Origin: Apostichopus japonicus
Lineage: Eukaryota > Echinodermata > Holothuroidea > Aspidochirotida > Stichopodidae
DNA length: 64,000 nt
Direction of reading: 5' to 3'
NCBI RefSeq assembly: GCF_037975245.1
Contig: NC_092579.1
Span: 14,368,678-14,432,677, forward strand
Shown here: piece by piece, positions 758 to 62,055 of the stretch
Layout: every line of letters begins with the position of its first letter
Position numbering within the stretch: the stretch's first letter is position 1
The notes under the pieces: model-generated
Told to the model about the DNA's origin: nothing
Databases searched by the model: none
What the model saw: only the letters and a program-made list of their open reading frames with translations
Program-made: the position numbers and the translations under genes

Positions 758-2848
758 TTAATTCATCACAACATGCTGAGTATCTGTTGCAATATTCTGA
801 CTTGGAACGAGGTAGCATTCTTTGTCGTAGATGAATTGTAAATCCCCTGGAATCTCTATGTGTTCTTCGTCCTCTTTTTCCTTGTATGTGATCTGTTGAT
901 AATGTTCTGGAGATTCGTTAGGTTGGTGTTCATTTCCCGACACATTCAGTGTATATTGATTCTGTGAGTTTATTAATGATTTCTTTGTCTCGTAACAACA
1001 ATAAATCATTAAACAAAGGACAACTACAACAAAGGCAAAGAAGAATGCGAAATATAAGTATGATATCAAGTCCATCTGTGATCCTAAAATGTAAGCTTGC
1101 AGGAACAAAACTGCTTTTGCATCCGCGGACTGACTTCTAATCACGCCGAGGCACTCAGCATAAATAGATGTAGTTTCGATATGTATGGGAGTATCCATAC
1201 CGAAAATCAAGCGATCGCAGTTAACTAGCAACGAAATACTGCTTTTTGGAAACTCCAATGTAATTTTCCAAGTTACATTATTTAGAGGTCCTGCGTTGCT
1301 TGAGCAGGTGAAAGTAATGTTACCTGAGTCAGTCATGGTATTCACTGATGGTGTTATCCAAGGGCGGCGGAACCGGGGGGGCACAGGGGGCACGTGCCCC
1401 CCCACTTTTCCTCAGGTTAAAAATGTGCCCTTTTTCTACCAAAAAATTTCTAAATAAAAAAAGAGTTAACAAAGCGAAACCCACGTCGAATGAAATATTT
1501 CGGGAATTTTTAAATGTTTACTACCACAGGCGTAGGAGCCCAATTTGAATTGGGGAGGCTGTAACGACTTGCCCGAAAAACATTACCAAAATTTTTCGCG
1601 CGCTACGCGCGCGTTCAACATGTTAATGTGCATATCATATAGGCATGCGTTGGTTATTACATCGCATGCCAATAACATACAATCATTTGCCGTGTTACAA
1701 CCCTTCCAAATTGGTTATAATTATTCGGAAAGTCGTTACAATAATAATGATCATAATAATATCAGTTTAACCATTGAAAAACACATTGAAAATTATTTTT
1801 CTTTCAGTATTTTCACATATTTCATTTGCTTTCATGCATGTATCCATCGCGTGTGCAGGGACTTGGACTTTATAATGATTTCACCTCATTTTGTCTTTTT
1901 CCTTGTTTCCCAATTTGCATAGATATTGCAGTGATAATATGCATTGTTTCCTTGAAGGGGGGGGGGTGGTGGCGTTGATGGAGTGATGTGTATACGCAAA
2001 TAAGATAACACAATAAGAGTTATAAAGGGTACTAAATATCAGGCTGCATCAGTCCAATCGAATTTCTGCTACTAGTGCCCTTCGACGTTGGTGCCCCCCC
2101 AGATTGAAAGTGCTTCCGCCGCCCTTGGTGTTATCATTACTTGAAGCTCTTCCATGTAAACACTTGGTGGAAATGAACAAAACTCAAAAGGTGTTATGTT
2201 CATTGATGAGGAAACTTCCTGACGAACAATGCATGAAATTTTCGTATTATTGAAATGTTCAGGGGGCACAAATGAAATCATTTTCTCGAAAATATTTTCA
2301 GATTTCGAAAAAGTAGTATTCACTGTCAATTTTTTAGAAAAGTGGATGAAAAAAATAGGCTCTTGTCGTCCAACGTCTGATATGTTACACCGTAAGACAA
2401 CTGTGTTGTTGATCACATCATCTGTAAAGAAAGAGAGTTTCTGGGAACTTGAACAGACGGGTTTTGAGGGTATGTAGTTGACCACTACGGTGAAAGATTG
2501 CAAGTCAGACGGTGTCAGTTGTAAAATGTTGTATTCACCAGCTTCATTTCTAGAAATGTTCTTTATAACTAATGTATGATTCCACCCAGATTGACTTACT
2601 GTGAACCAGTCATCATATTTTATCGGATTCCCTTCCAGTCTCCCGTTTCTTACGATGATGTGATTGCTGTCTTCGACGCGATATATCCCAACAGAGCCAT
2701 TACTCTTATACACTAGTTTTACATCATCACCTTCCATGACAATGTATTCCTTGATAGCTATCGTGGCTGTAGCGTATTGAAAGAACAACAAGATGAACAT
2801 AAAGCAATACATTTGTTGTATACTTCTAAAAGCAAACAAGTTTTCCAT
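758..2848 (-). pseudogene. A1: A-type Ig receptor gene split by a hAT insertion
   Basis: A-type receptor reading from ATG at 2848 (context GACATGG, the start conserved in all A copies) to TAA at 758. The frame covers signal peptide, Ig1, Ig2 and the start of Ig3, then enters an inserted element at 2127. Past the element (below 1358) the rest of Ig3, the membrane segment and the tail follow without further damage, and the two halves keep register apart from the element and its 8-bp target duplication. One Glu codon is missing in the Ig2-Ig3 linker relative to A2 (FEFC for FEEFC). The last tail tyrosine is replaced by His (TQHVVM), as in A2. As it stands the 5' half would give a 258-residue product: 241 native residues plus 17 from the element, with no membrane anchor. 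The lack of other lesions suggests recent inactivation, or a polymorphic insertion. Confidence 0.9.
1359..2127. mobile_element. Non-autonomous hAT-type element (769 bp)
   Basis: The ends are perfect 14-bp inverted repeats: CAAGGGCGGCGGAA at 1359-1372 and its complement at 2114-2127. The element is flanked by an 8-bp direct duplication GTGTTATC at 1351-1358 and 2128-2135. The uninterrupted sequence is present once in A2 at the same codon. An 8-bp duplication and ends fitting YARNG are hallmarks of the hAT superfamily. Poly-G runs follow both termini. An internal CG-rich palindrome (CGCGCGCTACGCGCGCG) lies near 1598-1614. There is no transposase frame, so it would need a transposase supplied elsewhere. 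Confidence 0.9.
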
Positions 2849-7614: not shown

Positions 7615-8931
7615 TTAATTCATCACAACATGCTGAGTATCTGTTGCAATATTCTGACTTGGAACGAGGTAGCATTCTTTGTCGTAGATGAATTGTAAAT
7701 CCCCTGGAATCTCTATGTGTTCTTCGTCCTCTTTTTCCTTGTATGTGATCTGTTGATAATGTTCTGGAGATTCGTTAGGTTGGTGTTCATTTCCCGACAC
7801 ATTCAGTGTATATTGATTCTGTGAGTTTATTAATGATTTCTTTGTCTCGTAACAACAATAAATCATTAAACAAAGGACAACGACAACAAGGGCAAAGAAG
7901 AATGCGAAATATAAGTATGATATCAAGTCCATCTGTGATCCTAAAATGTAAGCTTGCAGGAACAGAACTGCTTTTGCATCCGCTGACTGACTTCTAATCA
8001 CGCCGAGGCACTCAGCATAAATCGATGTATTATCGATATGTATGGGAGTATCCAGACCGAAAATCAAGCGATCGCAGTTAACTAGCAACGAAATACTGCT
8101 TTTTGGAAACTCCAATGTAATTTTCCAAGTTACATTATTTAGAGGTCCTGCGTTGCTTGAGCAGGTGAAAGTAATGTTACCTGAGTCAGTCATGGTATTC
8201 ACTGATGGTGTTATCATTACTTGAAGCTCTTCCATGTAAACACTTGGTGGAAATGAACAAAACTCTTCAAAAAGTGTTATGTTCATTGATGAGGAAACTT
8301 CCTGACGAACAATGCATGAAATTTTCGTATTATTGAAATGTTCAGGGGGCACAAATGAAATCATTTTCTCGAAAATATTTTCAGATTTCGAAAAAGTAGT
8401 ATTCACTGTAAATTTGTTAGAAAAGTGGATGAAAAAATTAGGGTCTTGTCGTCTAACGTCTGATATGTTACACCATAAGACAACTGTGTTTTTGATCACA
8501 TCATCTGTAAAGAAAGAGAGTTTCTGGGAACTTGAACAGACGGGTTTTGAGGGCATGTAGTTGACCACTACGGTGAAAGATTGCAAGTCAGACGGTGTCA
8601 GTTGTAAAATGTTGTATTCACCAGCTTCATTTCTGGAAATGTTCTTTATAACTAATGTAGGATTCCACCCAGATTGACTTACTGTGAACCAGTCATCATA
8701 TATCATCGGATTCCCTTCCAGGCTCCCGTTTCTTACGATGATGTGATTGCTGTCTTCGACGCGATATATCCCAATAGAGCCATTACTCTTATACACTAGT
8801 TTTACATCATCACCTCCCATGACACCGTACTCGTTGATAGCTGTCGTGGCTGTAGCGTATTGAAAGAACAACAAGATGGACAATGAGCAATACATTTTTT
8901 GTATACTTCTAAAAGCAAACAAGTTTTCCAT
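7615..8931 (-). CDS. A2: A-type three-Ig transmembrane receptor, intact (438 aa)
   Basis: Complete single-exon frame. Residues 1 to about 29 form a signal peptide. Ig1 (about 33-124) has the strand-F motif NEAGEY (101-106) but no Cys pair. Ig2 has C154/C206, with extra C132 and C225 at its borders that may form a second bridge. Ig3 has C257/C308 and W269. The membrane helix spans about 336-360 with no charged residue. The tail holds Y374 (YTLN), Y392 (YQQI), Y397, Y416 and Y421 (YLVP, a YxxP SH2-ligand form). The terminal YAVM seen in A4 reads HVVM here, losing the YxxM site. NxS/T sequons are frequent. The start is set by homology to all A copies and by a good context (GACATGG). Role inferred: surface receptor with its own tyrosine-based signalling; ligand unknown. 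Lineage-specific adhesion protein is the main alternative. Confidence 0.9.
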   Translation of the reverse strand: MENLFAFRSIQKMYCSLSILLFFQYATATTAINEYGVMGGDDVKLVYKSNGSIGIYRVEDSNHIIVRNGSLEGNPMIYDDWFTVSQSGWNPTLVIKNISRNEAGEYNILQLTPSDLQSFTVVVNYMPSKPVCSSSQKLSFFTDDVIKNTVVLWCNISDVRRQDPNFFIHFSNKFTVNTTFSKSENIFEKMISFVPPEHFNNTKISCIVRQEVSSSMNITLFEEFCSFPPSVYMEELQVMITPSVNTMTDSGNITFTCSSNAGPLNNVTWKITLEFPKSSISLLVNCDRLIFGLDTPIHIDNTSIYAECLGVIRSQSADAKAVLFLQAYILGSQMDLISYLYFAFFFALVVVVLCLMIYCCYETKKSLINSQNQYTLNVSGNEHQPNESPEHYQQITYKEKEDEEHIEIPGDLQFIYDKECYLVPSQNIATDTQHVVMN

Positions 8932-18198: not shown

Positions 18199-19527
18199 TC
18201 AAATTTCACTGTTGTATTTTTTCAATTTATCAATTTTGGCATACAAAACATTATCCGCATCCATATTAGGTTTCACTTCAATCTCTTCGTTGCTAGACTT
18301 GTCCATTACTCTAGGCGAGGGAACAGCTTGAAAGCAATTATCTCCGTCATCACATTTTCTTGGTGGAGTGTGTGAAACATTTCTACCATTTTCATCATTC
18401 TTCTTCGAGTCTGTCGGACTTTCGTCATCTCGCAAGTCCAGTTTTCTTGTCCGTCTAAGAAAACTATATGCTATGGTTACACAGCAAAGGACAATCACAA
18501 GCAAAGCAACGCACAATGAGTACAGCATCGAGTCCAAATTTGATTCTGACGAGGAATGTTGCAAGACTAGATCTGCGTTTGCACTCCCGGTATGATTCCG
18601 TACCTTACCGAAGCACTCAAAAACTATCGATGCACTATTGGACATTTTGGAGTTGTTCACTTGAAAGGTTATCTGGTCATGCTTAGCAAACTTCGTGACA
18701 CTATTTGGGACTTCGGGTGTTATCTTCCAAGTAACATTATCTAGAGGTCCTGCGTTACTTGAGCAGGTGAAAGTAATGTTACCTGAGTCATTCATGGCAT
18801 ACATTGATGGTGTTATCATTACTTGAAGCTCTTCCAAAAACAAGATCGGTGGAAATGAACAAGAATCTTCAAATGATGTAATGCTCATTGATGATGGAAT
18901 ATCCTGACGAACAATGCAGGAAATATAGCTGTTGTTCATACGCACAGAGGGTAAAATTGAGATGGCTGCCTCAAGACCATTTCCGGATATGATCACACTA
19001 GAATTCACTGATGATCCGTTTTGAAATTGGAAGGAAAGTGTAGATTTTGGTCGTCCTCTGTCACCAAGGCTGCACTGTAAAACGGCTGTCGCATTTGTCA
19101 CATCATCTTTGAAGAAAATGAGCTTCTGGGAACTCGAGCAGATGGGATTTGACGGTCTGTAGTTGACCAATACGGTCACAGATATTAATCTGAACGGGCT
19201 TTCCTGCATAAACCTGTATTCACCAGCTTCGTTTCTATCAATGTTCTTTATAGTGAGTGTATGCTTTCTTCCAGAATCACTAACTGTCGACGAATAGTCA
19301 TATTTGTTTGGATTCCCTTCCAGGTGTCCGTTATTTATGATGGTACTGTTTTCCCCTGTGTCTTTAAATATTCTACCAAAGTCATCACTACGATACACCA
19401 GTTCTACATCCTCACCCTCCAGTGCAATATATTCGTTGGTAGGCGTAATGGCTACAGCGCAAGTAAAGCACAATAACACGAACAAGTAGAAGTTATGTAT
19501 GCTTCCATAGATGAACAAGTTTTCCAT
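18199..19527 (-). CDS. B1: B-type three-Ig receptor with short tail, intact (442 aa)
   Basis: Complete single-exon frame from the conserved ATG (context AAAATGG). Signal peptide 1 to about 26. Ig1 (about 30-122) lacks the Cys pair but keeps NEAGEY (99-104). Ig2 has C152/C204, with flanking C130 and C223. Ig3 has C255/C305 and W267. Membrane helix about 334-356, then an Arg/Lys stop-transfer run. The tail is only about 86 residues: against B6 an in-frame deletion removes about 159 residues between KCDD (391-394) and DNCFQA (396-401), including five of the tail tyrosines of B6. The end VLYAKI (427-432) fits the ITIM consensus (V at -2, I at +3), whereas B6 has G at -2. The last residues (KLKKYNSEI) extend past the B6 stop. 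Inferred role: surface receptor, possibly inhibitory; ligand unknown. Confidence 0.9.
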   Translation of the reverse strand: MENLFIYGSIHNFYLFVLLCFTCAVAITPTNEYIALEGEDVELVYRSDDFGRIFKDTGENSTIINNGHLEGNPNKYDYSSTVSDSGRKHTLTIKNIDRNEAGEYRFMQESPFRLISVTVLVNYRPSNPICSSSQKLIFFKDDVTNATAVLQCSLGDRGRPKSTLSFQFQNGSSVNSSVIISGNGLEAAISILPSVRMNNSYISCIVRQDIPSSMSITSFEDSCSFPPILFLEELQVMITPSMYAMNDSGNITFTCSSNAGPLDNVTWKITPEVPNSVTKFAKHDQITFQVNNSKMSNSASIVFECFGKVRNHTGSANADLVLQHSSSESNLDSMLYSLCVALLVIVLCCVTIAYSFLRRTRKLDLRDDESPTDSKKNDENGRNVSHTPPRKCDDGDNCFQAVPSPRVMDKSSNEEIEVKPNMDADNVLYAKIDKLKKYNSEI

Positions 19528-23955: not shown

Positions 23956-25738
23956 TTAAAAATCAATTTTGGCATACAAACCATTTTCCACATCCGCATT
24001 AGGTGTCAGTTCAATCTCTTCGTTGCTAGACTTGTCCATTACTCTAGGCGAGGGAAGTGCTTGAAAGCAATCATTGGATGCGAAATCATCTTCACGGATA
24101 TCATTGTAAACATCTTCATGTAGATCGACCTCCTCCGTAAGCTGGACTGATATTACTGGATGTGCCTGAGAATCGTCAATATGGGTCTTGTCGCCTTTCC
24201 ATTCTTCATATGATTCATTTGATATCATTGCAATCGGTTCTTCTTTCAATCTGTCTGATTCTTTCAAAGTGTTCGACCATTGGAACTTGTCCAAAGTAAC
24301 GAATCTTCGTGATTTTGCCGAAGTCCCGACCATATTTGATGTCGAAGGTAGTGATAGCCAGCTTGCTAACTTGTTTGCATCATATTCACTAATCTGCTCT
24401 GGATCCTCTTCAAAATGGTCATTGGATGACTCTTTAACATTGTACGACACTTCTGAATTAACTTTTAGCTTGGTATGGCGTCTTTTGCCACCCTCACATC
24501 GAAGCTGATGAACATTCTGGGAGAGCTGGGTAGAATTTACGACTGACATCTTGTCGTCATCACATATTCTTGGTGGAATATGTGAAACATTTCTACCATT
24601 TTCATCATTCTTCTTCGAGTCTGTCGGACATTCGTCAGCTCGCAAGTCCATTCGTGGTTTTCTTGTCCGTTTAAGAAAACTGTATACTATGATTACACAG
24701 AAAAGGACAATCACAAGCAACGTAAAATAAGTGCAGCATCGAGTCCATATTTGATTCTGACGAGGAATGTTGCAAGACTAGCAGTGCGTTTGCACTCCCG
24801 ATATGATTCCGTACCTTACCGAAGCACTCAAAAACTATCGATGCATTATTGGACATTTTGGAGTTGTTCACTTGAAAGGTTATCTGGTCATGTTTAGCAA
24901 AATTCGTGACACTATTTGGGACTTCGGATTTGATCTTCCAAGTAACATTATCTAGAGGTCCTGCGTTACTTGAGCAGGTGAAAGTAATGTTACCTGAGTC
25001 ATTCATGGCATACATTGATGGTGTTATCATTACTTGAAGCTCTTCCAAAAACAAGATCGGTGGAAATGAACAAGAATCTTCAAATGATGTAGTGCTCATT
25101 GATGATGGAATATCCTGACGAACAATGCAGGAAATATAGCTGTTGTTCATACGCACAGAGGGTAAAATTGAGATGGAAGCCTCAAGACCATTTCCGGATA
25201 TGATCACACTAGAATTCACTGATGATCCGTTTTGAAATTGGAAGGAAAGTGTAGATTTTGGTAGTCCTATGTCACCAAGGCTGCACTGTAAAACGGCTGT
25301 CGCATTTGTCACATCATCTTTGAAGAAAATGAGCTTCTGGGAACTCGAGCAGATGGGATTTGACGGTCTGTAGTTGACCAATACGGTCACAGATATTAAT
25401 TTGAACGGTTTCTCCTGCATAAAACTGTAAACTCCAGCTTCGTTTCTATCAATGTTCTTTATAATGAGTGTATGCTTCCTTCCAGAATCACTAACTGTCG
25501 ACGAATAGCCATATTTGTTTGGATTCCCTTCCAGGTGTCCGTTATTTATGATGAAACTGTCTTCCCCTGTGTCTTTAAATATTCTACCAAAGCCATCACT
25601 ATGATACACCAGTCTTACATCCTCACCCTCCAGTGCTATATATTTGTTGGTAGGCGTAATGGCTACAGCGCAAGTAAAGCACAATAACACGAACATGTAG
25701 AAGTTATGTATACATCCATAGATGAACAAGTTTTCCAT
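23956..25738 (-). pseudogene. B2: B-type receptor with a frameshift in the membrane segment
   Basis: The frame is open from ATG at 25738 through signal peptide, three Ig modules and the first turn of the membrane helix. A 5-bp loss in the CAATCACAAGCAAAGCAACG region (about 24713-24721) then shifts the frame, and the first frame ends at 24671 after CNHSIQFS (355 residues). The original frame resumes at once and continues through the whole long tail to TAA at 23956, ending GLYAKIDF, with no other lesion. B6 carries a 6-bp in-frame loss in the same short repeat, so the site is slippage-prone. The truncated protein would keep all Ig modules but lack most of the helix, so it could be secreted. An assembly error or a recent mutation is possible. 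Confidence 0.85.
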
Positions 25739-26289: not shown

Positions 26290-27623
26290 TTACTTCATTA
26301 CAGCATACTGAGCATCTGCATCCTTCTCACTTGGAACGAGGTAGCATTCTTTGTCGTAGATGAATTGTAAATCCCCTGGAATCTCTATGTGTTCTTGGTC
26401 CTCTTTTGCCTTGCCTTTGATCCGTTGATAATGTCCTGGAATATCATAAATTTGTAAATTATCTTCGTTAGGTTGGTGTTCATTTCCCGACACATTCAGT
26501 GTATATTGATTCTGTGAGTTTATTAATGATTTCTTTGTCTCGTAACAACAATAAATCATTAAACAAAGGACAACGACAACAAAGGCAAAGAAGAATGCGA
26601 AATAAAAGTATGATATCAAGTCCATCTGTGATCCTAAAATGGAAGCTTGCAGGAACAGAACTGCTTTTGCATCCGCGGACTGACTTCTTATCACGCCGAG
26701 GCACTCAACATAAATCGATGTATTATCGATATTTTTGGGAGTATACAGACGGAAATTCAAGCGATCGCAGTTACTAGCAACGAAATACTGCTTTTTGGAA
26801 ACTCCAACGTAATTTTCCAAGTTAAATTATTTAGAGGTCCTGCGTTGCTTGAGCAGGTGAAAGTAATGTTACCTGAGTCAGTCATGATATACACTGATGG
26901 TGATATCATTACTTGAAGCTCTTCCATGTAAACACTTGGAGGAAATTAACAAAACTCTTCAAAAGGTGTCATGTTCATTGATGAGGAAACTTCCTGACGA
27001 ACAATGCATGAAATTTTTGTATTATTGAAATGTTCAGGGGGTACAAATGAAATCGATTTCTCGAAACTATTTTCAGATTTCGAAAAAGTAGTATTCATTG
27101 TAAATTTGTTAGAAAAGTGGATGAAAATATTAGGCTCTTGTCGTCCAACGTCTGATATGTTACACCATAAGACAACTGTGTTGTTGATCACATCATCTGT
27201 AAAGAAGGAGAGTTTCTAGGAACTTGAACAGACGGGTTTTGAGGGTATGTAGTTGACCACTACGGTGAAAGATTGCAGGTCAAACTGTGTCAGTTGTAAA
27301 ATGTTGTATTCACCAGCTTCATTTCTAGAAATGTTCTTTATAACTAATGTATGATTCCACCCAGATTGACGTACTGTGAACCAGTCATCATATTTCATCG
27401 GTTTCCCTTCCAGTCTCCCGTTTCTTACGATGATGTGATTGCTGTCTTCGACGCGATATATCCCAACAGAGCCATTACTCTTATACACTAATTTTACATC
27501 ATCACCTTCCATGACAATGTACTCGTTGATAGCGATCGTGACTGTAGCGTATTGAAAGAACAACAAGATGGACATAGAGCAATACATTTTTTGTATTCTT
27601 CTAAAAGCAAACAAGTTTTCCAT
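26290..27623 (-). pseudogene. A3: A-type receptor with two nonsense codons and a frameshift
   Basis: A-type gene from ATG at 27623 to the stop at 26290. Three lesions are visible: a Gln codon to TAG at 27216-27218 (start of Ig2), a Ser codon to TAA at 26946-26948 (Ig2-Ig3 linker), and loss of one A in GCAGTTAACTAGC at about 26773 (Ig3). The membrane segment and tail remain open. The tail has the longer form, with inserted IYDIP before YQRI, then YLVP and terminal YAVM, as in A4. The product would stop after 135 residues, so this is a pseudogene. Its tail may still donate sequence by gene conversion. Confidence 0.9.
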
Positions 27624-33395: not shown

Positions 33396-35196
33396 TCACT
33401 TTTGTATAGAAAAATCAATTTTGGCATACAAACCATTATCCACATCCTCATTAGGTGTCAGTTCAATCTCTTCGTTGCTAGACTTGTCCATTACTCTAGG
33501 CGAGGGAAATGCTTGAAAGCAATCAATTGCTGTGAAATAATCTTCACATATATCAAGGTAGACAGGTTGGTGTAGATCGACCTCCTCCGTAAGCTGGACA
33601 GATATTACTGGATGTGCCTGAGAATCGTCAATAGAGGTCTTGTCGCCTTTCCTTTTTTGATATGGTTCATTTGATATCATTTCAATCGGTTCTTCTTTAC
33701 ATCTTTCTGATTCTTTCAAAGTGTTCGACCATTGGAACTTGTCCAAGGTAACGAATCTTTGTGATTTTGCCGATGTCCCGACCATATTTGATGTCGAAGG
33801 TAGTTTTAGCCAGCTTGCTAGTTTGTTTGCATCATATTCACTCATTTGCTCTGGATCCTCTTCAAAATGGTCATTGGATGACTGTTCAACTTTGTACGAC
33901 TTTTCTGAACTAACTTTTAGCTTGGTATGGCGTCTTTTGCCACCCTCACAACGAAGCTGATGAACATTCTTGGAGAGCTGGGTAGAATTAACGACTGACA
34001 TCTTGTCGTCATCACACTTTCTTGGTGGAATGTGTGAAACATTTCTACCATTTTCATCATTCTTCTTCGAGTCTGTCGGACATTTGTCAGCTCGCAAGTC
34101 CATTCGTGGTTTTCTTGTCCGTCTAAAAAAAACTATATGCTATGATTACACAGAAAAGGACAATCACAAGCAAAGCAACGTAAAATAAGTACAGCATTGA
34201 GTCCAAATTTGATTCTGACGAGGAATGTTGCAAGACTAGATCTGCGTTTGCACTCCCGGAATGACTCTCTACTTTACCGAAGCACTCAAAAACTATCGAT
34301 GCATTATTGGACCTTTAGGAGTTGTTCACTTGAAAGGTTATCTGGTCATAATTAGGAAAATTCGTGACACTATTTTGGACTTCGGGTTTTATCTTCCAAG
34401 TCACATAATCTAGAGGTCCTGCGTTACTTGAGCAGGTGAAAGTAATGTTACCTGAATCAGTCAAGGTATACATTGATGGTGTTATCGTTACTTGAAGCTC
34501 TTCCAAAAACAAGATCGGTGGAAATGAACAAGAATCTTCAAATGACGTAATGCTCATTGATGATGGAATATCCTGACGAACAATGCAGGAAATATAGCTG
34601 TTGTTCATACGCACAGAGGGTAAAATTGTGATGGATGCCTCAAGACCATTTCCGAATATGATCACACTAGAATTCACTAATGATCTGTTTTGAACTTGGA
34701 AGAAAAGTGTAGATTTTGGTCGTCCAATGTCACCAAGGCTGCACTGTAAAACGGCTGTCGCGTTTGTCACCTCATCTTTAAAGAAAATGAGCTTCTGGGA
34801 ACTCGAGCAGATGGGATTTGACGGTCTGTAGTTGACCAATACGGTCACAGATATTAATTTGAACGGTTTCTTCTGCATAAACCTGTATTCACCAGCTTCG
34901 TTTCTATCAATGTTCTTTATAATAAGTGTATGCTTTCTTCCAGAATCACTAACTGTCGACGAATAGCCATATTTGTTTGGATTCCCTTCCAGGTGTCCGT
35001 TATTTATGATGGTACTGTTTTCCCCTGTGTCTTTAAATATTATACCAAAGCCATCACTATGATATACCAGTTCTACATCCTCACCCTCCAGTGCAATATA
35101 TTCGTTGGTAGGCGTAATGGCTACAGCGCAAGTAAAGCACAATAACATGACCATGTAGAAGTTATGTATACTTCCATAGATGAACAAGTTTGCCAT
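33396..35196 (-). pseudogene. B3: B-type receptor with nonsense codon and frameshift
   Basis: Start ATG at 35196 (MANLFIYG; second residue Ala instead of Glu). Open through Ig1, Ig2 and most of Ig3, then a Lys codon has become TAA at 34315-34317 (after FQVNNS, 293 residues). A +1 slip in the A-run at 34125-34132, just after the membrane helix, separates the tail frame (34103 down to 33396). The tail is otherwise intact and ends GLYAKIDFSIQK. Two independent lesions make it a pseudogene. A product, if made, would be a soluble fragment with an incomplete Ig3. Confidence 0.88.
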
Positions 35197-38662: not shown

Positions 38663-39907
38663 TTAATTCATCACAACATACTGAGTATCTGTTGCATCCT
38701 TCTGACTTGGAACGAGGTAGCATTCATTGTCGTAGATGAATTATAAATCCCCTGGAATCTCTATGTGTTCTTCGTCCTCTTTTTCCTTGTATGTGATCTG
38801 TTGATAATGTTCTGGAGATTCGTCAGGTTGGTGTTCATTTCCCGACACATTCAGTTCGTATTGATTTTGTGAGTTTATTAATGATTTCTTTGTCTCGTAA
38901 CAACAATAAATCATTAAACAAAGGACAACGACAACAAAAGCAAAGAAGAATGCGAAATATAAGTATGATACCAAGTCCATCTGTGATCCTGAAATGGAAG
39001 CTTGCAGAAACAGAACTGCTTTTGCATCCGCGGACTGATTTCTTATGAGGCCGAGGCACTCAAAATAAATCGTTATATTATTGATAAGTATGGGAGTATA
39101 CAGACGGAAATTCAAGCGATCGTAGTTAACTAGCAACGAAATACTGCTTTTTGGAACCTCCGATGTAATTTTCCAAGTTACATTATCTAGAGGTCCTGCG
39201 TTACTTGAGCAGGTGAAAGTAATGTTACCTGAGTCAATCATGGTATACATTGATGGTGATATCATTACTTGAAGCTATTCCAAAAACAAAATTGGTGGAA
39301 ATGAACAAAAATCTTCAAAGGGTGACAGGTTCATTGATGACGAAACTTCCTGACGAACAATGCATGAAATGTTCGTATTATTAAAATGTTCAGAGGGTAC
39401 AAATGAAATCGATTTCTCGAGAATATTTTCAGATTTCGAAAAAGTAGAGTTCACTGAAAAATTGTTAGAAAAGTGGTTAAAAAATTAGGCTCTTGTCGTC
39501 CAACGTCGTAAATATTACACCGTAAGACAACTGTGTTATTGATTACAACATCTGGAAAGAAAGAGAGTTTCTGTGAACTTGAACAGACGGGTTTTGAGGG
39601 TATGTAATTGACCACTACGGTGAAAGATTGCAGGTCAAACGGTGTCAGTTTTACAAAGCTGTATTCACCAGCTTCATTTCTAGAAATGTTCTTTATAACT
39701 AGTGTATGATTCCACCCAGATTGACTGACTGTAAACCAGTAATCATATTTCATCGGAGCCATTACTCTTATACACCAGATTCACATCATCACCTTCCATG
39801 ACAATGTATTCGTTGATAGCAGTCGTGGTTGTAGCGTTTTGAAAGAACAACAAGATTGACAGAGAAAAGCATTTTTTTATACTTCTAAAACTAAACTAGT
39901 TTTCCAT
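38663..39907 (-). pseudogene. A5: decayed mosaic A-type receptor
   Basis: Recognisable from ATG at 39907 to the former stop at 38663. Lesions include TAG at codon 4 (39896-39898), a 68-bp deletion in Ig1 near 39757, a 1-bp loss near 39481 in Ig2, and TAA at 38741-38743 in the tail (after EIPGDL). The Ig2-Ig3 linker and first half of Ig3 (about 39160-39310) resemble B genes (CCAAAAACAA linker, SMYTM, GPLDNVTW), while both sides are A-like, so it is an A/B mosaic. The part after SEVP is closest to the chimera AB (FECLGLIRNQSADAK). Clearly non-functional. Confidence 0.85.
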
Positions 39908-44079: not shown

Positions 44080-44635
44080 GTCCATGGTTCGTGTTTCGAT
44101 GCGTTTCGACGTTATCATACGATAACCGAAGTTGAATCCGACTGATGGATGACAGTTTAGCACGGTTTCACAATGCCAGGAAAGGATATCCGTATGTAAG
44201 GACAACTGGCCATGTTAAGTTTATATCATCAGCCAATATTAAATACAATATGTAATGCTTCAGTATCAGTTTATATAACAGAAATCGAAAATTAATATAT
44301 TAAAGGTCAATATCAGCATGTTTACGACAAAACGATCAGTGACATTGGCCGGTGCCATTTGTTTCAAAATTTCAGAATTGCTATCCACATATTATCATGA
44401 AAAATTATTATACTGCAATTTGATATCAGCCTATTGCACTTCGACTCAAAGAAGGTTCTTTTAGGTAAATTTGACAGAAATCGATCTATTCATCATTCGA
44501 AGTTAATAAAGAACAACCCGGTAGATTAGGTAACTTGGTAGTGGAATTATAGTAAAATGTAACAACGGTATAAGGTTAGAAATGAAACTTCACAGGGCTT
44601 AAGTATGTCATACGTTGTGATATATAATTTATGCA

Positions 44636-45170
44636 GTGTCACATTTACTTAAAAGTGCGGATCACAAAAGCAAAACGTTAGTGTTCCGTTGAAATGTTAA
44701 CATGTTCGTTTACTTCAATTCATCAATATTTTGTACAATTTTTAATTACCGGCAATACCAGATGGTAAAAAATTTAAGTCACGAACTAATTTACTTGCTA
44801 CAGAATTATCAACTGTATTCGACAGCAGTTTGTAACTATCATGAGTAGTTGGACGCTGTTCCATTGCCCCTACCTCTTGCCCGATTCAAGACCCTTGCGG
44901 AAATACCTGAACTGTAAGAGGAAGATGTGTTTACTCTCAATCTTGCAAATATTGCATGTTACATTTGAACGGTTCATAGAAATATGTGACAACTACTCAA
45001 CACAATATTAATGCAGTCATACTAGAATCTCCATCATTACACATTAGAGTACGACACAATAGCTTCGGGTTTGCCATGGAGCTAATTAGTGGTAAGCAAA
45101 ACTATACAGTATTGTCAACGAATGTAAAATCCAACCGGTTTAATAATTTCAGATGTGGCTGTCATTAGTT
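44636..45170. repeat. Block S, 3' flank of the AB chimera
   Basis: Closest to 223-757, sharing the extra leading part (CAGTGTCACATTTACTTAAA). ATTAAA on the minus strand lies shortly after the AB stop. No gene is supported. Confidence 0.7.
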
Positions 45171-46481
45171 TTAATTCTTCACAGCATACTGAGCATCTGT
45201 TGTATCCTTCTGACTTGGAACGAGGTAGCATTCTTTGTCGTAGATGAATTGTAAATCCCCTGGAATCTCTACGTGTTCTTCGTCCTCTTTTTCCTTGTAT
45301 GTGACCTGTTGATAATGTTCTGGAGATTCGTTAGGTTGGTGCTCATTTCCCGACACATTCAGTTCGTATTGATTTTGTGAGTTTATTAATGATTTCTTTG
45401 TCTCGTAACAACAATAAATCATTAAACAAAGGACAACGACAACAAAAGCAAAGAAGAATGCGAAATATAAGTATGATACCAAGTCCATCTGTGATCCTGA
45501 AATGGAAGCTTGCAGAAACAGAACTGCTTTTGCATCCGCGGACTGATTTCTTATGAGGCCGAGGCACTCAAAATAAATCGTTATATTATTGATAAATATG
45601 GGTGTATACAGACGGAAATTCAAGCGATCGTAGTTAACTAGCAACGAAAAACTGTTTTTTGGAACCTCCGATGTAATTTTCCAAGTTACATTATCTAGAG
45701 GTCCTGCGTTACTTGAGCAGGTGAAAGTAATGCTACCTGAGTCATTCATGGTATACATTGATGGTGATATCATTACTTGAAGCTCTTCCAAAAACAAGAT
45801 CGGTGGAAATGAACAACAATCTTCAAATGATGTAATGCTCATTGATGATGGAATATCCTGACGAACAATGCAGGAAATAAAGCTGTTGTTCATACGCACA
45901 GAGGGTAACATTGAGATGGATGCCTCAAGACCATTTCCGGATATGATCACACTAGAACTCACTAATGATCTGTTTTGAAATTGGAAGAAAAGTGTAGACT
46001 TTGGTCGTCCTATGTCACCAAGGCTGCACTGTAAAACGGCTGTCGCATTTGTCACATCATCTTTAAAGAAGATGAGCTTCTGGGAACTCGAGCAGATGGG
46101 ATCTGACGGTCTGTAGTTGACCAATACGGTCATAGATATTAATTTGAACGGTTTCTCCTGCATAAACCTGTATTCGCCAGCTTCGTTTCTAGAAATGTTC
46201 TTTACAATGAGTGTATGATTTCTTCCAGAATCACTAACTGTCGACGAATAGCCATATTTGTTTGGATTCCCTTCCAGGTGTCCGTTATTTATGATGGTAC
46301 TGTTTTCCCCTGTGTCTTTAAATATTATACCAAAGCCATCACTATGATACACCAGTCTTACATCCTCACCCTCCAGTGCAATATATTCGTTGGTAGGCGT
46401 AATGGCTACAGCGCAAGTAAAGCACAATAACACGAACATGTAGAAGTTATGTATACTTCCATAGATGAACAAGTTTTCCAT
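45171..46481 (-). CDS. AB: chimeric receptor, B ectodomain with A membrane/tail, intact (436 aa)
   Basis: Residues 1 to about 274 are B-type: signal peptide 1 to about 26, Ig1 with NEAGEY but no Cys pair, Ig2 C152/C204 with extra C130, C222 and C223, and the first half of Ig3 with C255 and W267. From about residue 275 (after SEVP) the sequence is A-type: second half of Ig3 with C306, membrane helix about 335-357, and a tail with Y372 (YELN), Y390 (YQQV), Y395, Y414 and Y419 (YLVP). The terminal motif reads YAVK, losing the YxxM of A4. The frame is perfect across the switch, inside the Ig3 fold near 45655-45670. Upstream DNA is block P (B-like) and downstream DNA is block S (A-like), so the fusion includes the flanks. 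Inferred role: B-like recognition coupled to A-like signalling. Confidence 0.92.
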   Translation of the reverse strand: MENLFIYGSIHNFYMFVLLCFTCAVAITPTNEYIALEGEDVRLVYHSDGFGIIFKDTGENSTIINNGHLEGNPNKYGYSSTVSDSGRNHTLIVKNISRNEAGEYRFMQEKPFKLISMTVLVNYRPSDPICSSSQKLIFFKDDVTNATAVLQCSLGDIGRPKSTLFFQFQNRSLVSSSVIISGNGLEASISMLPSVRMNNSFISCIVRQDIPSSMSITSFEDCCSFPPILFLEELQVMISPSMYTMNDSGSITFTCSSNAGPLDNVTWKITSEVPKNSFSLLVNYDRLNFRLYTPIFINNITIYFECLGLIRNQSADAKAVLFLQASISGSQMDLVSYLYFAFFFAFVVVVLCLMIYCCYETKKSLINSQNQYELNVSGNEHQPNESPEHYQQVTYKEKEDEEHVEIPGDLQFIYDKECYLVPSQKDTTDAQYAVKN

Positions 46482-47032
46482 TTTTTACCACGGAATGATG
46501 AAAGGTATTTCAAGTTTGCATGTGATTTATCTTCTAAACCGCTGTGATTTTAGACGAGATGATAGTAACGCGATGTCTTGCCAGCTGATAAAAGCATTCA
46601 CAACGGAGATATGAATAATATATATTATATATATGTAGACAATTTACTTACAGTATTTGATAATGGATTCCTCTTCGAAGAACAGTTGAAACGTTTAATT
46701 TTTATAGTTTTCCAAAGCGCAATTATTTTCTCATATGGAACATATCGCTAGTTTATTAGTGGGACAGACATTAACAACTACAGGCCTAAGTACATATGAC
46801 ATCGACGTTCGTATTAACTAATATGTTAATTACCTTTATGACTATTAGAAAATTGTCATGATTATGTTTGTATACAATTAAGAATATACAATCAGTTTGC
46901 AAAGTTCACCAAATGAAGCCTTTACTAAAATTTAGTATTACAATTAAATGCCAATTATAATTGTGAAAGTGAAATGTTATTGATCACATGTGAAGTCCGT
47001 AGAGAAACTCTCAGATGTTACTGTCATTAGTT
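46482..47032. repeat. Short block P between AB and A4
   Basis: B-type upstream region, confirming that AB uses a B promoter. Contains GAAAGTGAAA (46975-46984) and the donor-like GTAAGT site. It ends at the A4 stop. Confidence 0.7.
46975..46984. promoter_or_regulatory. IRF-like site upstream of AB
   Basis: Exact GAAAGTGAAA, 494 bp upstream of the AB start codon and about 50 bp upstream in coordinate from the A4 stop. Confidence 0.4.
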
Positions 47033-48370
47033 TTAATTCATTACAGCATACTGAGCATCTGCTGCATCCTTCTGACTTGGAACGAGGTAGCATTCTTTGT
47101 CGTAGATGAATTGTAAATCCCCTGGAATCTCTATGTGTTCTTGGTCTTCTTTTGCCTTGTCTTTGATCCGTTGATATTGTCCTGGAATATCATAAATTTG
47201 TAAATTATCTTCGTTAGGTTGGTGTTCATTTCCCGACACATTCAGTGTATATTGATTCTGTGAGTTTATTAATGATTTCTTTGTCTCGTAACAACAATAA
47301 ATCATTAAACAAAGGACAACGACAACAAAGGCAAAGAAGAATGCGAAATAAAAGTATGATATCAAGTCCATCTGTGATCCTAAAATGGAAGCTTGCAGGA
47401 ACAGAACTGCTTTTGCATCCGCGGACTGACTTCTTATCACGCCGAGGCACTCAACATAAATCGCTGTATTATCGATATGTATGGGAGTATACAGACGGAA
47501 ATTCAAGCGATCGCAGTTAACTAGCAACGAAATACTGCTTTTTGGAAACTCCAAAGTAATTTTCCAAGTTACATTATTTAGAGGTCCTGCGTTTCTTGAG
47601 CAGGTGAAAGTAATGTTACCTGGGTCAGTCATGGTATTCACTGATGGTGATATCATTACTTGAAGCTCTTCCATGTAAGCACTTGGTGGAAATGAACAAA
47701 ACTCTTCAAAAAGTGTTATGTTCATTGATGAGGAAACTTCCTGACGAACAATGCATGAAATTTTCGTATTATTGAAATGTTCAGGGGGCACAAATGAAAT
47801 CATTTTCTCGAAAATATTTTCAGATTTCGAAAAAGTAGTATTCATTGTAAATTTGTTAGAAAAGTGGATGAAAAAATTAGGCTCTTGTCGTCCAACGTCT
47901 GATATGTTACACCATAAGACAACTATGTTGTTGATCACATCATCTGTAAAGAAAGAGAGTTTCTGGGAACTTGAACAGACGGGTTTTGAGGGTATGTAGT
48001 TGACCACTATGGTGAAAGATTGCAGGTCAAACGGTGTCAGTTGTAAAATGTTGTATTCACCAGCTTCATTTCTAGAAATGTTCTTTATAACTAATGTATG
48101 ATTCCACCCAGATTGACTTACTGTGAACCTGTCATCATATTTCATCGGATTCCCTTCCAGTTTCCAGTTTATTACGATGATGTGATTGCTGTCTTCGACG
48201 CGATATATCCCAACAGAGCCATTACTCTTATACACTAGTTTAACATCATCACCTTCCATGACAATGTATTCGTTGATAGCTGTCGTGGCTGTAGCGTATT
48301 GAAAGAACAACAACATGGACATAGAGCAATACATTTTTTGTATTCTTCTAAAAGCAAACAAGTTTTCCAT
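47033..48370 (-). CDS. A4: A-type three-Ig receptor, intact (445 aa)
   Basis: Complete single-exon frame. Signal peptide 1 to about 29. Ig1 lacks the Cys pair (NEAGEY 101-106). Ig2 has C154/C206 plus C132 and C225. Ig3 has C257/C308 and W269. Membrane helix about 336-360, uncharged. The tail is the richest among the A genes: Y374 (YTLN), Y393 (YDIP), Y399 (YQRI), Y423, Y428 (YLVP) and Y441 (YAVM). YDIP and YLVP are YxxP forms bound by Crk/Nck-type SH2 domains. YAVM is the YxxM form bound by the PI3K p85 SH2 domain. Relative to A2 the tail has an inserted NLQIYDIPG-type segment before YQRI. The start fits all A copies (GACATGG). Inferred role: activating-type surface receptor; ligand unknown. 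It lies about 550 bp upstream of AB, in the same orientation. Confidence 0.92.
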   Translation of the reverse strand: MENLFAFRRIQKMYCSMSMLLFFQYATATTAINEYIVMEGDDVKLVYKSNGSVGIYRVEDSNHIIVINWKLEGNPMKYDDRFTVSQSGWNHTLVIKNISRNEAGEYNILQLTPFDLQSFTIVVNYIPSKPVCSSSQKLSFFTDDVINNIVVLWCNISDVGRQEPNFFIHFSNKFTMNTTFSKSENIFEKMISFVPPEHFNNTKISCIVRQEVSSSMNITLFEEFCSFPPSAYMEELQVMISPSVNTMTDPGNITFTCSRNAGPLNNVTWKITLEFPKSSISLLVNCDRLNFRLYTPIHIDNTAIYVECLGVIRSQSADAKAVLFLQASILGSQMDLISYFYFAFFFAFVVVVLCLMIYCCYETKKSLINSQNQYTLNVSGNEHQPNEDNLQIYDIPGQYQRIKDKAKEDQEHIEIPGDLQFIYDKECYLVPSQKDAADAQYAVMN

Positions 48371-52756: not shown

Positions 52757-54514
52757 TCAAATTTCACTGTTGTATAGAAAATCAATTTCGGCATACAAAC
52801 CATTTTCAACATCCGCATTAGGTATCAGTTCAATCTCTTCGTTGCTAGACTTTTCCATTACTCTAGGCGAGGGAAATGCTTGAAAGCAATCATTGGATGT
52901 GAAATAATCTTCACGGATATCATTATAAACATCTTCATGTAGATCGACCTCCTCCGTAAGCTGGACAGATATTACTGGATGTGCCTGAGAATCGTCAATA
53001 TGGGTCTTGTCGCCTTTCCATTCTTCATATGATTCATTTGATATCATTGCATTCGGTTCTTTTCTCAATCTTTCTGATTCTTTCAAAGTGTTCGACCATT
53101 GGAACTTGTCCAAAGTAACGAATCTTTGTGATTTTGCCGATGTCTCGACCATATTTGATGTCGAAGGTAGTGATAGCCAGCTTGCTAATTTGTTTGCATC
53201 ATATTCACTAATCTGCTCTGGATCCACTTCAAAATGGTCATTGAATGACTGAATGACTTTGCCACCCTCACATCTAAGCTGATGAACATTCTGGGAGAGC
53301 TGGGTAGAATTAACGACTGAAGTCTTGTCGTCATCACATTTTCTTGGTGGAATGTGTGAAACATTTCTACCATTTTCATCATTCTTCTTCGAGTCTGTCG
53401 GACTTTCGTCATTTCGCAAGTCCATTCGTGGTTTTCTTGTCCGTCTAAGAAAACTATATACTATGATTACACAGAAAAGGACAATCACAAGCAAAGCAAC
53501 GTACAATGAGTACATCATCGAGTCCAAATTTGATTCTGACGAGGAATGTTGCAAGACTAGCTGTGCGTTTGCACTCCCGGAATGATTCCGTACCTTACCG
53601 AAGCACTCAAAAACTATCGATGCATTATTGGACCTTTTGGAGATGTTCACTTGAAAGGTTATCTGGTCATGCTTAGCAAACTTCGTGACACTATTTGGGA
53701 CTTCGGGTGTTATCTTCCAAGTTACATTATCTAGAGGTCCTGCGTTACTTGAGCAGGTGAAAGTAATGTTACCTGAGTCATTCATGGCATACATTGATGG
53801 TGTTATCATAACTTGAAGCTCTTCCAAAAACAAGATCGGTGGAAATGAACAAGAATCTTCAAATGATGTAGTGCTTGATGATTGAATATCCTGACGAACA
53901 ATGCAGGAAATATAGCTGTTGTTCATACGCACAGAGGGTAAAATTGAGATGGATGCCTCAAGACCATTTCCGGATATGATCACACTAGAATTCACTAATG
54001 ATCTGTTTTGAACTTGGAAGAAAAGTGTAGACTTTGGTCGTCCTATGTCACCAAGGCTGCACTGTAAAACGGCTGTCGCATTTGTCACCTCATCTTTGAA
54101 GAAAATGAGCTTCTGGGAACTCGAGCATATGGGATTTGATGGTCTGTAGTTGACCAATACGGTCACAGATATTATTTTGAACGGTTTCTCCTGCAAAAAA
54201 CTGTATTCTCCAGCTTCGTTTCTAGAAATGTTCTTTATAATGAGTGTATGCTTTCTTCCAGAATCACTAACTGTCGACGAATAGCCATATTTGTTTGGAT
54301 TCCCTTCCAGGTGTCCGTTATTAAGGATGGTACTGTTTTCCCCTGTGTCTTTAAATATTCTACCAAAGCCATCACTATGATACACCAGTCTTGCATCCTC
54401 ACCCTCCAGTGCAATATATTCGTTGGTAGGCGTAATGGCTACAGCGCAAGTAAAGCACAATAACATGAACATGTAGAAGTTATGTATACTTCCATAGATG
54501 AACAAGTTTTCCAT
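52757..54514 (-). CDS. B5: B-type three-Ig receptor with long tail, intact (585 aa)
   Basis: Start chosen at 54514 (MENLFIYG), the position conserved in the family; an in-frame ATG three codons upstream (54523) is possible. Signal peptide 1 to about 26. Ig1 lacks the Cys pair. Ig2 has C152/C204 with flanking C130 and C222, and is one residue shorter than in B6 before DSC. Ig3 has two Cys and WKI. The membrane helix is followed by RRTRKPR. The tail (about 230 residues) has acidic and Ser-rich stretches and tyrosines in EYDAN, SYEEW, VYNDI, DYFTS, LYAEI and LYNSEI contexts. An in-frame loss of about 15 residues after CEGGK removes the SYNV tyrosine present in B6. VYNDI and LYAEI are too far apart for an ITAM. 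Inferred surface receptor; ligand unknown. Confidence 0.92.
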   Translation of the reverse strand: MENLFIYGSIHNFYMFMLLCFTCAVAITPTNEYIALEGEDARLVYHSDGFGRIFKDTGENSTILNNGHLEGNPNKYGYSSTVSDSGRKHTLIIKNISRNEAGEYSFLQEKPFKIISVTVLVNYRPSNPICSSSQKLIFFKDEVTNATAVLQCSLGDIGRPKSTLFFQVQNRSLVNSSVIISGNGLEASISILPSVRMNNSYISCIVRQDIQSSSTTSFEDSCSFPPILFLEELQVMITPSMYAMNDSGNITFTCSSNAGPLDNVTWKITPEVPNSVTKFAKHDQITFQVNISKRSNNASIVFECFGKVRNHSGSANAQLVLQHSSSESNLDSMMYSLYVALLVIVLFCVIIVYSFLRRTRKPRMDLRNDESPTDSKKNDENGRNVSHIPPRKCDDDKTSVVNSTQLSQNVHQLRCEGGKVIQSFNDHFEVDPEQISEYDANKLASWLSLPSTSNMVETSAKSQRFVTLDKFQWSNTLKESERLRKEPNAMISNESYEEWKGDKTHIDDSQAHPVISVQLTEEVDLHEDVYNDIREDYFTSNDCFQAFPSPRVMEKSSNEEIELIPNADVENGLYAEIDFLYNSEI

Positions 54515-60273: not shown

Positions 60274-62055
60274 TTAAAAATCAATTTCGGCATACAAACC
60301 ATTTTCCACATCCGCATTAGGTGTCAGTTCAATCTCTTCGTTGCTAGACTTTTCCATTACTCTAGGCGAGGGAAATGCTTGAAAGCAATCATTGGATGTG
60401 AAATAATCTTCACTTATATCATGGTAAACATCTTCATGTAGATCGACCTCCTCCGTAAGCTGGACAGATATTACTGGATGTGCATGAGAATCGTCAATAT
60501 GGGTCTTGTCGCCTTTCCATTCTTCATATGATTCATTTGATATCATTGCAATCGGTTCTTCTTTCAATCTTTCTGATTCTTTCAAAGTGTTCGACCATTG
60601 GAACTTGTCCAAAGTAACGAATCTTTGTGATTTTGCCGAAGTCCCGACCATATTTGATGTCGAAGGTAGTGATAGCCAGCTTGCTAACTTGTTTGCATCA
60701 TATTCACTAATCTGCTCTGGATCCTCTTCAAAATGGTCATTGGATGACTCTTCAACATTGTACGACACTTCTGAATTAACTTTTAGCTTGGTATGGCGTC
60801 TTTTGCCACCCTCACATCGAAGCTGATGAACATTCTGGGAGAGCTGGGTAGAATTTACGACTGACATCTTGTCGTCATCACATTTTCTTGGTGGAATATG
60901 TGAAACATTTCTACCATTTTCATCATTCTTCTTCGAGTCTGTCGGACATTCGTCAGCTCGCAAGTCCATTCGTGGTTTTCTTGTCCGTTTAAGAAAACTG
61001 TATACTATGATTACACAGAAAAGGACAAGCAAAGCAACGTAAAATAAGTGCAGCATCGAGTCCATATTTGATTCTGACGAGGAATATTGCAAGACTAGCT
61101 GTGCGTTTGCACTCCCGATATGATTCCGTACCTTACCGAAGCACTCAAAAACTATCGATGCATTATTGGACCTTTTGGAGTTGTTCACTTGAAAGGTTAT
61201 CTGGTCATGTTTAGCAAAATACGTGACACTATTTGGGACTTCTGATTTTGTCTTCCAAGTAACATTATCTAGAGGTCCTGCGTTACTTGAGCAGGTGAAA
61301 GTTATGTTACCTGAGTCATTCATGGCATACATTGATGGTGTTATCATTACTTGAAGCTCTTCCAAAAACAAGATCGGTGGAAATGAACAAGAATCTTCAA
61401 ATGATGTAATGCTCATTGATGATGGAATATCCTGACGAACAATGCAGGATATATAGCTGTTGTTCATACGCACAGAGGGTAACATTGAGATGGATACCTC
61501 AAGACCATTTCCGGATATGATCACACTAGAACTCACTAATGATCTGTTTTGAACTTGGAAGAAAAGTGTAGACTTTGGTCGTCCAATGTCACCAAGGCTG
61601 CACTGTAAAACGGCTGTCGCATTTGTCACCTCATCTTTGAAGAAAATGAGCTTCTGGGAACTCGAGCAGATGGGATTTGACGGTCTGTAGTTGACCAATA
61701 CGGTCACAGATATTAATTTTAACGGTTTCTCCTGCATAAACCTGTATTCACCAGCTTCGTTTCTAGAGATGTTCTTTATAATGAGTGTATGCTTTGTTCC
61801 AAAATCACTAACTGTCGACGAATAGCCATATTTGTTTGGATTCCCTTCCAGGTGTCCGTTATTTATGATGAAACTGTTTTCCCCTGTGTCTTTAAATATT
61901 ATACCAAAGCCATCACTATGATACACCAGTTCTACATCCTCACCCTCCAGTGCAATATATTCGTTGGTAGGCGTAATGGTTACAGCGCAAGTAAAGCACA
62001 ATAACACGAACATGTAGAAGTTATGTATACTTCCATAGATGAACAAGTTTTCCAT
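60274..62055 (-). CDS. B6: B-type three-Ig receptor with long tail, intact (593 aa)
   Basis: Start placed at 62055 (MENLFIYG) by family conservation; an in-frame ATG at 62088 would add 11 residues that precede the signal peptide and is less likely. Signal peptide 1 to about 26. Ig1 (about 30-122) lacks the Cys pair, with NEAGEY at 99-104. Ig2 has C152/C204, with C130/C223. Ig3 has C255/C305 and W267. Membrane helix about 335-355, two residues shorter than in B5 owing to a 6-bp loss, then KRTRKPR. The tail is about 235 residues with Y432 (SYNV), Y452 (EYDAN), Y510 (SYEEW), Y544 (VYHDI), Y551 and Y588 (LYAEI, a Src-SH2-like form with Gly at -2). Sequons include N145, N170, N198, N250 and N264. 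It is the longest intact copy and a useful reference for the B type. Ligand unknown. Confidence 0.92.
   Translation of the reverse strand: MENLFIYGSIHNFYMFVLLCFTCAVTITPTNEYIALEGEDVELVYHSDGFGIIFKDTGENSFIINNGHLEGNPNKYGYSSTVSDFGTKHTLIIKNISRNEAGEYRFMQEKPLKLISVTVLVNYRPSNPICSSSQKLIFFKDEVTNATAVLQCSLGDIGRPKSTLFFQVQNRSLVSSSVIISGNGLEVSISMLPSVRMNNSYISCIVRQDIPSSMSITSFEDSCSFPPILFLEELQVMITPSMYAMNDSGNITFTCSSNAGPLDNVTWKTKSEVPNSVTYFAKHDQITFQVNNSKRSNNASIVFECFGKVRNHIGSANAQLVLQYSSSESNMDSMLHLFYVALLVLFCVIIVYSFLKRTRKPRMDLRADECPTDSKKNDENGRNVSHIPPRKCDDDKMSVVNSTQLSQNVHQLRCEGGKRRHTKLKVNSEVSYNVEESSNDHFEEDPEQISEYDANKLASWLSLPSTSNMVGTSAKSQRFVTLDKFQWSNTLKESERLKEEPIAMISNESYEEWKGDKTHIDDSHAHPVISVQLTEEVDLHEDVYHDISEDYFTSNDCFQAFPSPRVMEKSSNEEIELTPNADVENGLYAEIDF

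Follow-up and report, generated by a model that had tools for sequence, protein, structure and literature searches.

The gene AB, which lies in a minus-strand array of single-exon receptors, is an in-frame chimera that joins the leader and first two Ig domains of one receptor type (B) to the third Ig domain, membrane helix and cytoplasmic tail of another (A). The array occupies the window, that is, the whole stretch of 64,000 nucleotides analysed here (C19:14368678-14432677). We read AB as a true germline fusion of neighbouring head-to-tail paralogues, made by unequal crossing-over and representing one case of a recurrent process, and we give this reading a probability of roughly 0.78. The layout of the predicted protein is simple, with a hydrophobic leader (recognised by eye), three Ig-like domains, a membrane helix and a cytoplasmic tail. 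The Pfam model Ig_3 matches AB at residues 236-273 (E 2.9e-07; score 31.3 against a cut-off of 30) and is also over its cut-off in B1, B4 and B5, while I-set is over the cut-off in A4 and all Ig matches of A2 stay below threshold. A hydropathy peak beginning at residue 340 leaves 78 residues downstream. The AlphaFold model, which at a pLDDT of 41.5 gives rough strand positions only, places a helix at 334-370 and the first strand of Ig3 at 234-240. A sequence search of the PDB gave no match up to E 1. AB and the array copies are Ig-superfamily type I membrane receptors, and the features discussed below are collected in Table 1.

Table 1. Features of AB and of the receptor array (positions are those of the window; residues are those of AB).
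Feature	Residues	Position	Strand	Description or basis
AB		45171..46481	(-)	Single-exon ORF, intact, ATG start, 436 aa, no internal stop
B-derived part of AB (leader, Ig1, Ig2)	1-228	45799..46481	(-)	Identity to B1-B5
Crossover interval of AB (Ig3 start)	228-239	45767..45798	(-)	Bounded by the last B-only site (45798) and the first M39-only site (45767)
A-prime-derived part of AB (Ig3, membrane helix, tail)		45171..45766	(-)	Identity to M39 and A1-A4
A/B homology island	221-260	45702..45821	(-)	A-B mean identity 81-91%; M39-B 91-96%
B-type 5′ flank, between A4 and AB, presumed promoter side		46482..47003	(-)	96.2% to B2 flank
A-type 3′ flank of AB		44635..45170	(-)	A-copy match ends at 44635
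A1		760..2848	(-)	A gene, interrupted at codon ~240 by an insert
A2		7615..8931	(-)	A gene, intact
A3		26296..27623	(-)	A gene, frameshifted
A4		47033..48370	(-)	A gene, intact, directly upstream of AB
B1		18199..19527	(-)	B gene, intact, in-frame tail shortening
B2		23956..25738	(-)	B gene, frameshift in membrane segment
B3		33396..35196	(-)	B gene, in-frame stop
B4		52757..54514	(-)	B gene, intact, long tail
B5		60274..62055	(-)	B gene, intact, long tail
M39		38666..39907	(-)	Broken A-prime gene; tblastn pieces in two frames, internal stops

The first-pass annotation had claimed that AB passes from B to A sequence without losing its frame, that its flanks switch with it, and that recombination has coupled one recognition head to a different tail. 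All three claims are borne out, with identity blocks, trees and flanks in agreement. From 46481 to 45799 the DNA of AB is 95.3-96.6% identical to B1-B5, the nearest being B5 (96.6%), against 68-69% to A1-A4 and 71% to M39. The relation is reversed from 45664 to 45171, where identity is 91-92% to A1-A4 and 97.2% to M39 against 50-52% to B1-B5; between these blocks (45798-45665) AB is 97.0% identical to M39. The blastn matches of all five B copies to AB end at 45657/45658. With a single breakpoint, the 343 informative sites split 166:1 on one side against 2:174 on the other (maximum chi-square 331; matched by 0 of 1000 shuffles), and the 436-aa frame is open across it. The trees of the two parts conflict, each at a support of 100/100: the 5′ part separates AB and the B copies from the A copies and M39, and the 3′ part, in an unrooted tree, separates AB, the A copies and M39 from the B copies. 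An AU test rejected a grouping of AB with M39 in the 5′ part (p-AU 3.4e-7). In the 3′ part the test did not confirm an AB-M39 clade (p 0.41) and did not reject a position of AB on the B side of the A and M39 rows (p 0.31); AB may be the outermost A-type row there. Outside the gene, the 5′ flank of AB matches that of B2 over 522 bp and the 3′ flank tracks the A copies to the limit given in Table 1. A short way past this 3′ flank, at 43694-44079, is a 194-bp unit in two head-to-tail copies that are 96% identical.

The position of the switch required revision. It had been placed near residue 275; when AB is compared with M39, the junction lies about 40 residues earlier, at residues 228-239 (45767-45798). 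The apparent switch near residue 275 is an effect of comparing with A1-A4 only, and arises because M39, the nearest relative of the donor, is itself B-like at the start of Ig3. Two other candidate markers were discarded: site 45785, the edge given by the breakpoint scan, is a private stop codon of M39, and the blastn match of A1 begins, at 45771, where A1 carries its insert. With the junction so placed, the earlier description of a B ectodomain is correct for Ig1 and Ig2, but Ig3 sits on the A side. The description of an A tail likewise stands as to type, but the nearest relative of the donor belongs to a separate A-prime lineage, seen in the pseudogene M39, and not to A1-A4.

M39 is the nearest relative of the Ig3-to-tail part of AB, and the two have 22 sites in common that occur in none of A1-A4. 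From 45797 downward, in AB coordinates, M39 shows the same mix of A-like and B-like sites as AB. It is of A type except for its B-like Ig3 start, and it branches outside A1-A4 in both halves (support 99/98 in the 5′ part and 81/100 in the 3′ part). At the Ig3-start sites where A1-A4 and the B copies differ, the outgroup proteins L013-L015 have ILF or LLF and L010-L014 have SEI or SDV. Since the outgroups resemble B at these sites, M39 has probably kept an ancestral Ig3 start. We considered M39 as a three-part A-B-A mosaic and rejected this, as its B-like stretch matches the outgroup state and both of its halves fall outside A1-A4; M39 looks like one coherent older A lineage. On this evidence the tail of AB came from the A-prime lineage, of which the array otherwise has M39, a pseudogene. 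The Ig3-to-tail part of AB is the sole open one of A-prime type among the matches listed for this assembly. Close copies of the A tail were likewise confined to the array among the matches listed, the best match outside having an E of 0.31. Against a member of the family on contig C11 the likeness is weak (47% over 34 residues, E 0.5), and a Y-D-x3-Y-L pattern, found by eye, is common to the A tail and several C11 tails, which suggests that the A tail may be an old tail type.

The array consists of A1-A4, B1-B5, the chimera AB, the broken M39, three A-tail stubs and one B leader fragment. Six copies are open (A2, A4, AB, B1, B4 and B5) and 5 of 11 are broken (A1, A3, B2, B3 and M39). Leaving the stubs and the leader fragment at 14.1 kb out of the count, all five A-headed copies (M39 included) have an A tail and all five B-headed copies have a B tail, with AB as the exception; a reciprocal fusion of an A head to a B tail was found in none of the 11 window copies. 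The assembly searched comprises 671.6 Mb in 35 contigs. The genome search, in which 96 of 103 candidates were scored, listed no further A or B copies for the rest of C19, and the genome-wide protein search outside the window listed nothing above 39% identity. Judged by its mitochondrial genes, the source is most likely an echinoderm. Of six genetic-code tables applied to COX1 on the mitochondrial contig C35, tables 9 and 14, in which AAA stands for Asn, were the ones to yield the asparagines usual in animals (for example STNHKDIG); with table 9, the mitochondrial code of echinoderms and flatworms, the frame closes at 517 aa, and ND4L-like sequence, recognised by eye, follows COX1. A further contig (C29:14745-31219) has five fragments that resemble COX1 and contain TGA codons; these are possibly a second mitochondrial contig or a nuclear copy.

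Several smaller features of the array can be described. The insert in A1 (1359-2125) is about 770 bp long, with GC-rich inverted ends and the flanking repeat GATAACACC; it looks like a DNA transposon, and its site is the Ig3-start island that also holds the junction of AB. The A-tail stubs (11705-11854, 30392-30541 and 35744-35893) open with the acceptor-like TTTTCCAG or TTATCCAG, and those at 11.8 and 30.5 kb lie within blocks that are 98.9% identical over 2.4 kb. The three stubs, at 11.8, 30.5 and 35.8 kb, may be leftovers of A genes or alternative last exons onto which B heads are spliced. As regards splicing, those GTRAG sites in B1, B4 and B5 that are located past Ig2 and in a suitable phase would, by eye, break into Ig3 or introduce a stop. 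The tail of B1, near 18330, is without a stretch found in B4 and B5 (477 alignment columns), with the frame kept.

The crossover of AB falls within the A/B homology island of about 120 bp. Around the island the mean A-B identity is 57-80% at residues 1-220, 69% at 261-280 and 36-63% beyond, and the 60-bp windows beside it stand at 59-79% upstream and 69-47% downstream. Within the island dN is 0.11-0.16 against 0.33-0.42 in Ig1-Ig2, and dS is 0.39-0.45 against 0.59-0.69. A recent A/B homogenisation of the island is unsupported, as dN falls more than dS; protein constraint would in good part account for the high identity. The surroundings of the gene indicate where AB came to lie. The stretch 46480-50808, from A4 to the 5′ flank of AB, matches 25737-30041, from A3 to the 5′ flank of B2, at 95.3% over 4.3 kb, so AB occupies the slot of a B gene.

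In the event that we propose, a B gene, the second of an A-B pair, would have recombined out of register with an A-prime gene, the exchange point being the short stretch common to A and B at the Ig2/Ig3 border. The product would carry a B 5′ flank with B Ig1-Ig2, followed by Ig3, membrane helix, tail and 3′ flank from the A side, and the unequal crossing-over that we infer, in preference to conversion, would have deleted the B tail, the spacer and the A-prime head. The 3′ side of AB bears on this preference. Past AB, the A flank runs to 44635 and is followed by sequence that is unmatched in the array and then by the upstream flank of M39; the 3′ flank of B4 has no match (at least 80 bp, E 1e-10) between 38188 and 50897. 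Unequal crossing-over with deletion fits better than conversion because there is no B 3′ flank after AB before M39. The history was probably not a single event, as AB has been touched by more than one exchange: its 3′ flank at 44874-44973 is 99% identical to A1 against 87% to M39. The copies nearest to AB also differ by part, B5 for the head and B2 for the 5′ flank. Past A2 and M39 (about 7135-7140 and 38183-38188) an A-type 3′ flank changes to a B-type 3′ flank at corresponding positions, and no B gene intervenes; these changes indicate that other exchanges touched the array.

Such patchiness speaks for gene conversion or a double exchange, in which the 3′ half of a B gene would have been overwritten by A-type sequence with no simple deletion involved. 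The tail of AB is like M39 and part of its 3′ flank is like A1, so that patchy exchange did take place; within-type blocks are mostly 91-95% alike, and A tails precede B flanks elsewhere in the array (A2 at about 7140, M39 at 38188). We nevertheless hold this account to be unlikely, since the A-type stretch at AB never reverts to B sequence. An error of assembly, by which two gene copies or haplotypes were joined within a shared stretch, is very improbable, even though the array is repetitive. Each half of AB differs by about 3% from its nearest window copy (identity is at most 96.6% to a B gene for the head and 97.2% to M39 for the tail), and the reading frame is preserved across a joint that falls on a domain border. 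The shared stretch, about 120 bp at 81-96%, is judged too short and too divergent for a long-read join. A misjoin specifically at 45650-45670 is unlikely because M39 has nearly the same sequence across that stretch.

With the germline fusion by unequal crossing-over as the preferred history, AB should display the B recognition tip under B-type control and signal through an A-type tail instead of the B tail. Its head would recognise what B heads do, if Ig1-Ig2 carry the specificity. A rewired output, as first proposed, is plausible, and ligand binding may have been kept; it is also plausible that A-type and B tails use different adaptors. In the tail of AB the single YxxPhi motif is YQQV, and there is no strict ITIM; B4 and B5 have two YxxI each, and B1 has the strict ITIM VLYAKI, the only one in the window, with none in B4, B5, A2, A4 or AB. 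The ITAM pattern is absent from the window tails and has one match in 39 proteins (L018), and none of the window copies has a charged residue in its A or B helix core. AB and B5 are 83% identical in the part before the membrane and 36% in membrane and tail, and thereby appear to present closely similar ligand-binding domains on different tails, a feature of paired receptors.

AB may instead be a neutral by-product that is becoming a pseudogene without a role, an account that is compatible with the fusion history and that we regard as possible, though rather less probable than not. Among the 16 private changes of AB, 13 are replacements and 3 are silent, against about 3.1:1 expected by chance, so that no purifying selection since the fusion is visible in these changes. 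Within-type comparisons often give a dN/dS near or above 1, and 5 of the 11 copies are broken. Against this, all 436 codons of AB are still open while the A-prime line decayed in M39, a weak argument given only 16 private changes. Fast-evolving immune receptors usually show a high dN/dS, and the values found here fit such receptors also.

Mixing of heads and tails is also found in sister arrays of the same genome. A pair of genes was called discordant when the heads were at least 70% and the tails less than 50% identical, or when the heads were less than 60% and the tails at least 75% identical. By this measure the window has 4 discordant pairs out of 15, C11 has 2 out of 6 at 25.9-26.07 Mb and 47 out of 136 at 26.98-27.6 Mb, and C4 has 12 out of 21. 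The head/tail tables hold the 33 of 44 loci (L010-L053) with an ORF of at least 400 aa, 11 being dropped (an earlier cut was at 300 aa); the ORF of L030 exceeds the fetched stretch, and the start position is uncertain in L029, L035 and L038. The table for the type at 27 Mb of C11 holds 23 of 29 loci by the same length limit (22 on C11 and one on C18, 6 dropped). It is a sample, as at least 80 places were listed at E <=1e-10, pieces and other arrays included. In these 23 loci, each of two head types is found with each of three tail types (counts 5, 6, 2 and 5, 3, 2), with no association between head type and tail type (chi-square p 0.73). On the head tree there are 11 changes of tail type, against a mean of 10.4 after shuffling, and 160 of 200 shuffles were as low. 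The tail tree has 5 changes of head type against shuffled means of 7.7 and 7.8, with 20 and 19 of 500 shuffles as low, so head type is still somewhat clustered by tail. The tail types T1-T3 were assigned by eye and checked by identity, and single linkage at 55% merged T1 and T3. T1 shares its last ~35 residues with T2, from which it differs in the membrane segment, and shares the membrane segment with T3, from which it differs beyond; because of this partial sharing, not every swap need change the signal.

The C11 pairs do not support a break at the AB border. In the pairs L034/L030, L022/L023 and L056/L030, near-identity stops at residues 231-241, near the Ig2/Ig3 border, and identity then holds at about 62-90%. 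Their tail types separate further on, from about residue 311 in L022/L023 and about 391 in L034/L030 and L056/L030, which places the switch of type downstream of the Ig2/Ig3 border. Identity falls at 341-351, the membrane border, on C4, from about 271-281 in L058/L055, and within the tail in L012/L010. Since the pairwise breakpoints differ, the AB border is not a demonstrated common hot spot. The C4 set consists of seven loci (L019, L043-L045, L048, L049 and L051), three further C4 loci being too short to use. Its discordant pairs have heads that are 83-89% identical and tails that are 16-29% identical; LDYEEI is present in 4 of 4 tails of one type, and 3 of 3 of the other type are short and without a strict ITIM, which resembles the paired-receptor pattern. 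Two observations were made by eye on other contigs. L017 (C23) and L018 (C11) are closely similar members on two contigs, a sign of movement between chromosomes, and L059 on C18, which resembles the C11 array, is a single open frame with a repeated Ig3-like segment.

Because other arrays mix heads and tails repeatedly, the idea of a fusion at AB gains weight. We further put forward, tentatively and as a reading that falls somewhat short of an even chance, a germline combinatorial system in which single-exon Ig heads and tails are reshuffled by recombination, at conserved stretches from Ig2 to the membrane. Under such a system head and tail types would no longer be associated, the same kind of head would occur with ITIM-bearing and ITIM-less tails, and AB would be a recent product in which the donor lineage is still visible. 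If expressed, the arrays would let one test in nature whether selection acts on recognition and signalling separately, and whether recombination by itself can build a repertoire of innate receptors. AB lends itself to such work, because relatives close to either parent are known, as are its two flanks and a junction of ~30 bp.

The open-licence, top-ranked part of the literature that was searched named no study of an echinoderm Ig receptor array of this kind, a weak negative result. The nearest echinoderm likeness is to the sea urchin SpTransformer (Sp185/333) genes, which in the source text available are also tightly clustered immune genes with mosaic sequences. They are described there with two exons and internal repeats, whereas AB has one exon with Ig domains. 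SpTransformer proteins are not known to have Ig domains or membrane tails. The teleost leukocyte immune-type receptors are a vertebrate family with multi-exon genes. In the excerpted text on that family, modular signalling motifs are thought to be altered by recombination, deletion or insertion (PMC4810170), and its members, likened here by description, resemble the array in being Ig receptors with tyrosine-bearing tails. The fester co-receptors (FcoR) of Botryllus, as far as the available part of the source goes, swap ITIM and hemITAM by allele or splice form, so that the link between binding and output is described as plastic (PMC12065747). Like the array they are invertebrate Ig receptors in a gene cluster, but their swap is allelic or by alternative splicing, and that of AB is built into the gene; this likeness too is one of description.

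The principle has parallels in mammals. According to the portions of the sources at hand, CEACAM1 and its ITAM-bearing relatives reflect recombination by which Ig receptors have traded their cytoplasmic parts (PMC2832619), and the ectodomains of Siglec-11/16 are kept alike by gene conversion (PMC5701461). AB and the sister arrays are like these paired receptors in having similar recognition domains with different signalling tails. In the same partial texts, the mammalian CEACAM and Siglec genes are multi-exon, with known ITIM/ITAM or adaptor signalling, whereas the array coding regions have one exon each and the tails of A and B do not form a canonical ITIM/ITAM pair. Tail swapping as a principle is thus known in mammals, and it is the single-exon setting and the extent of the swapping that look new. 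Besides the restriction to one exon, what is new is that the fusion keeps the frame and lies on a domain border, and that heads and tails are not associated in the sampled loci.
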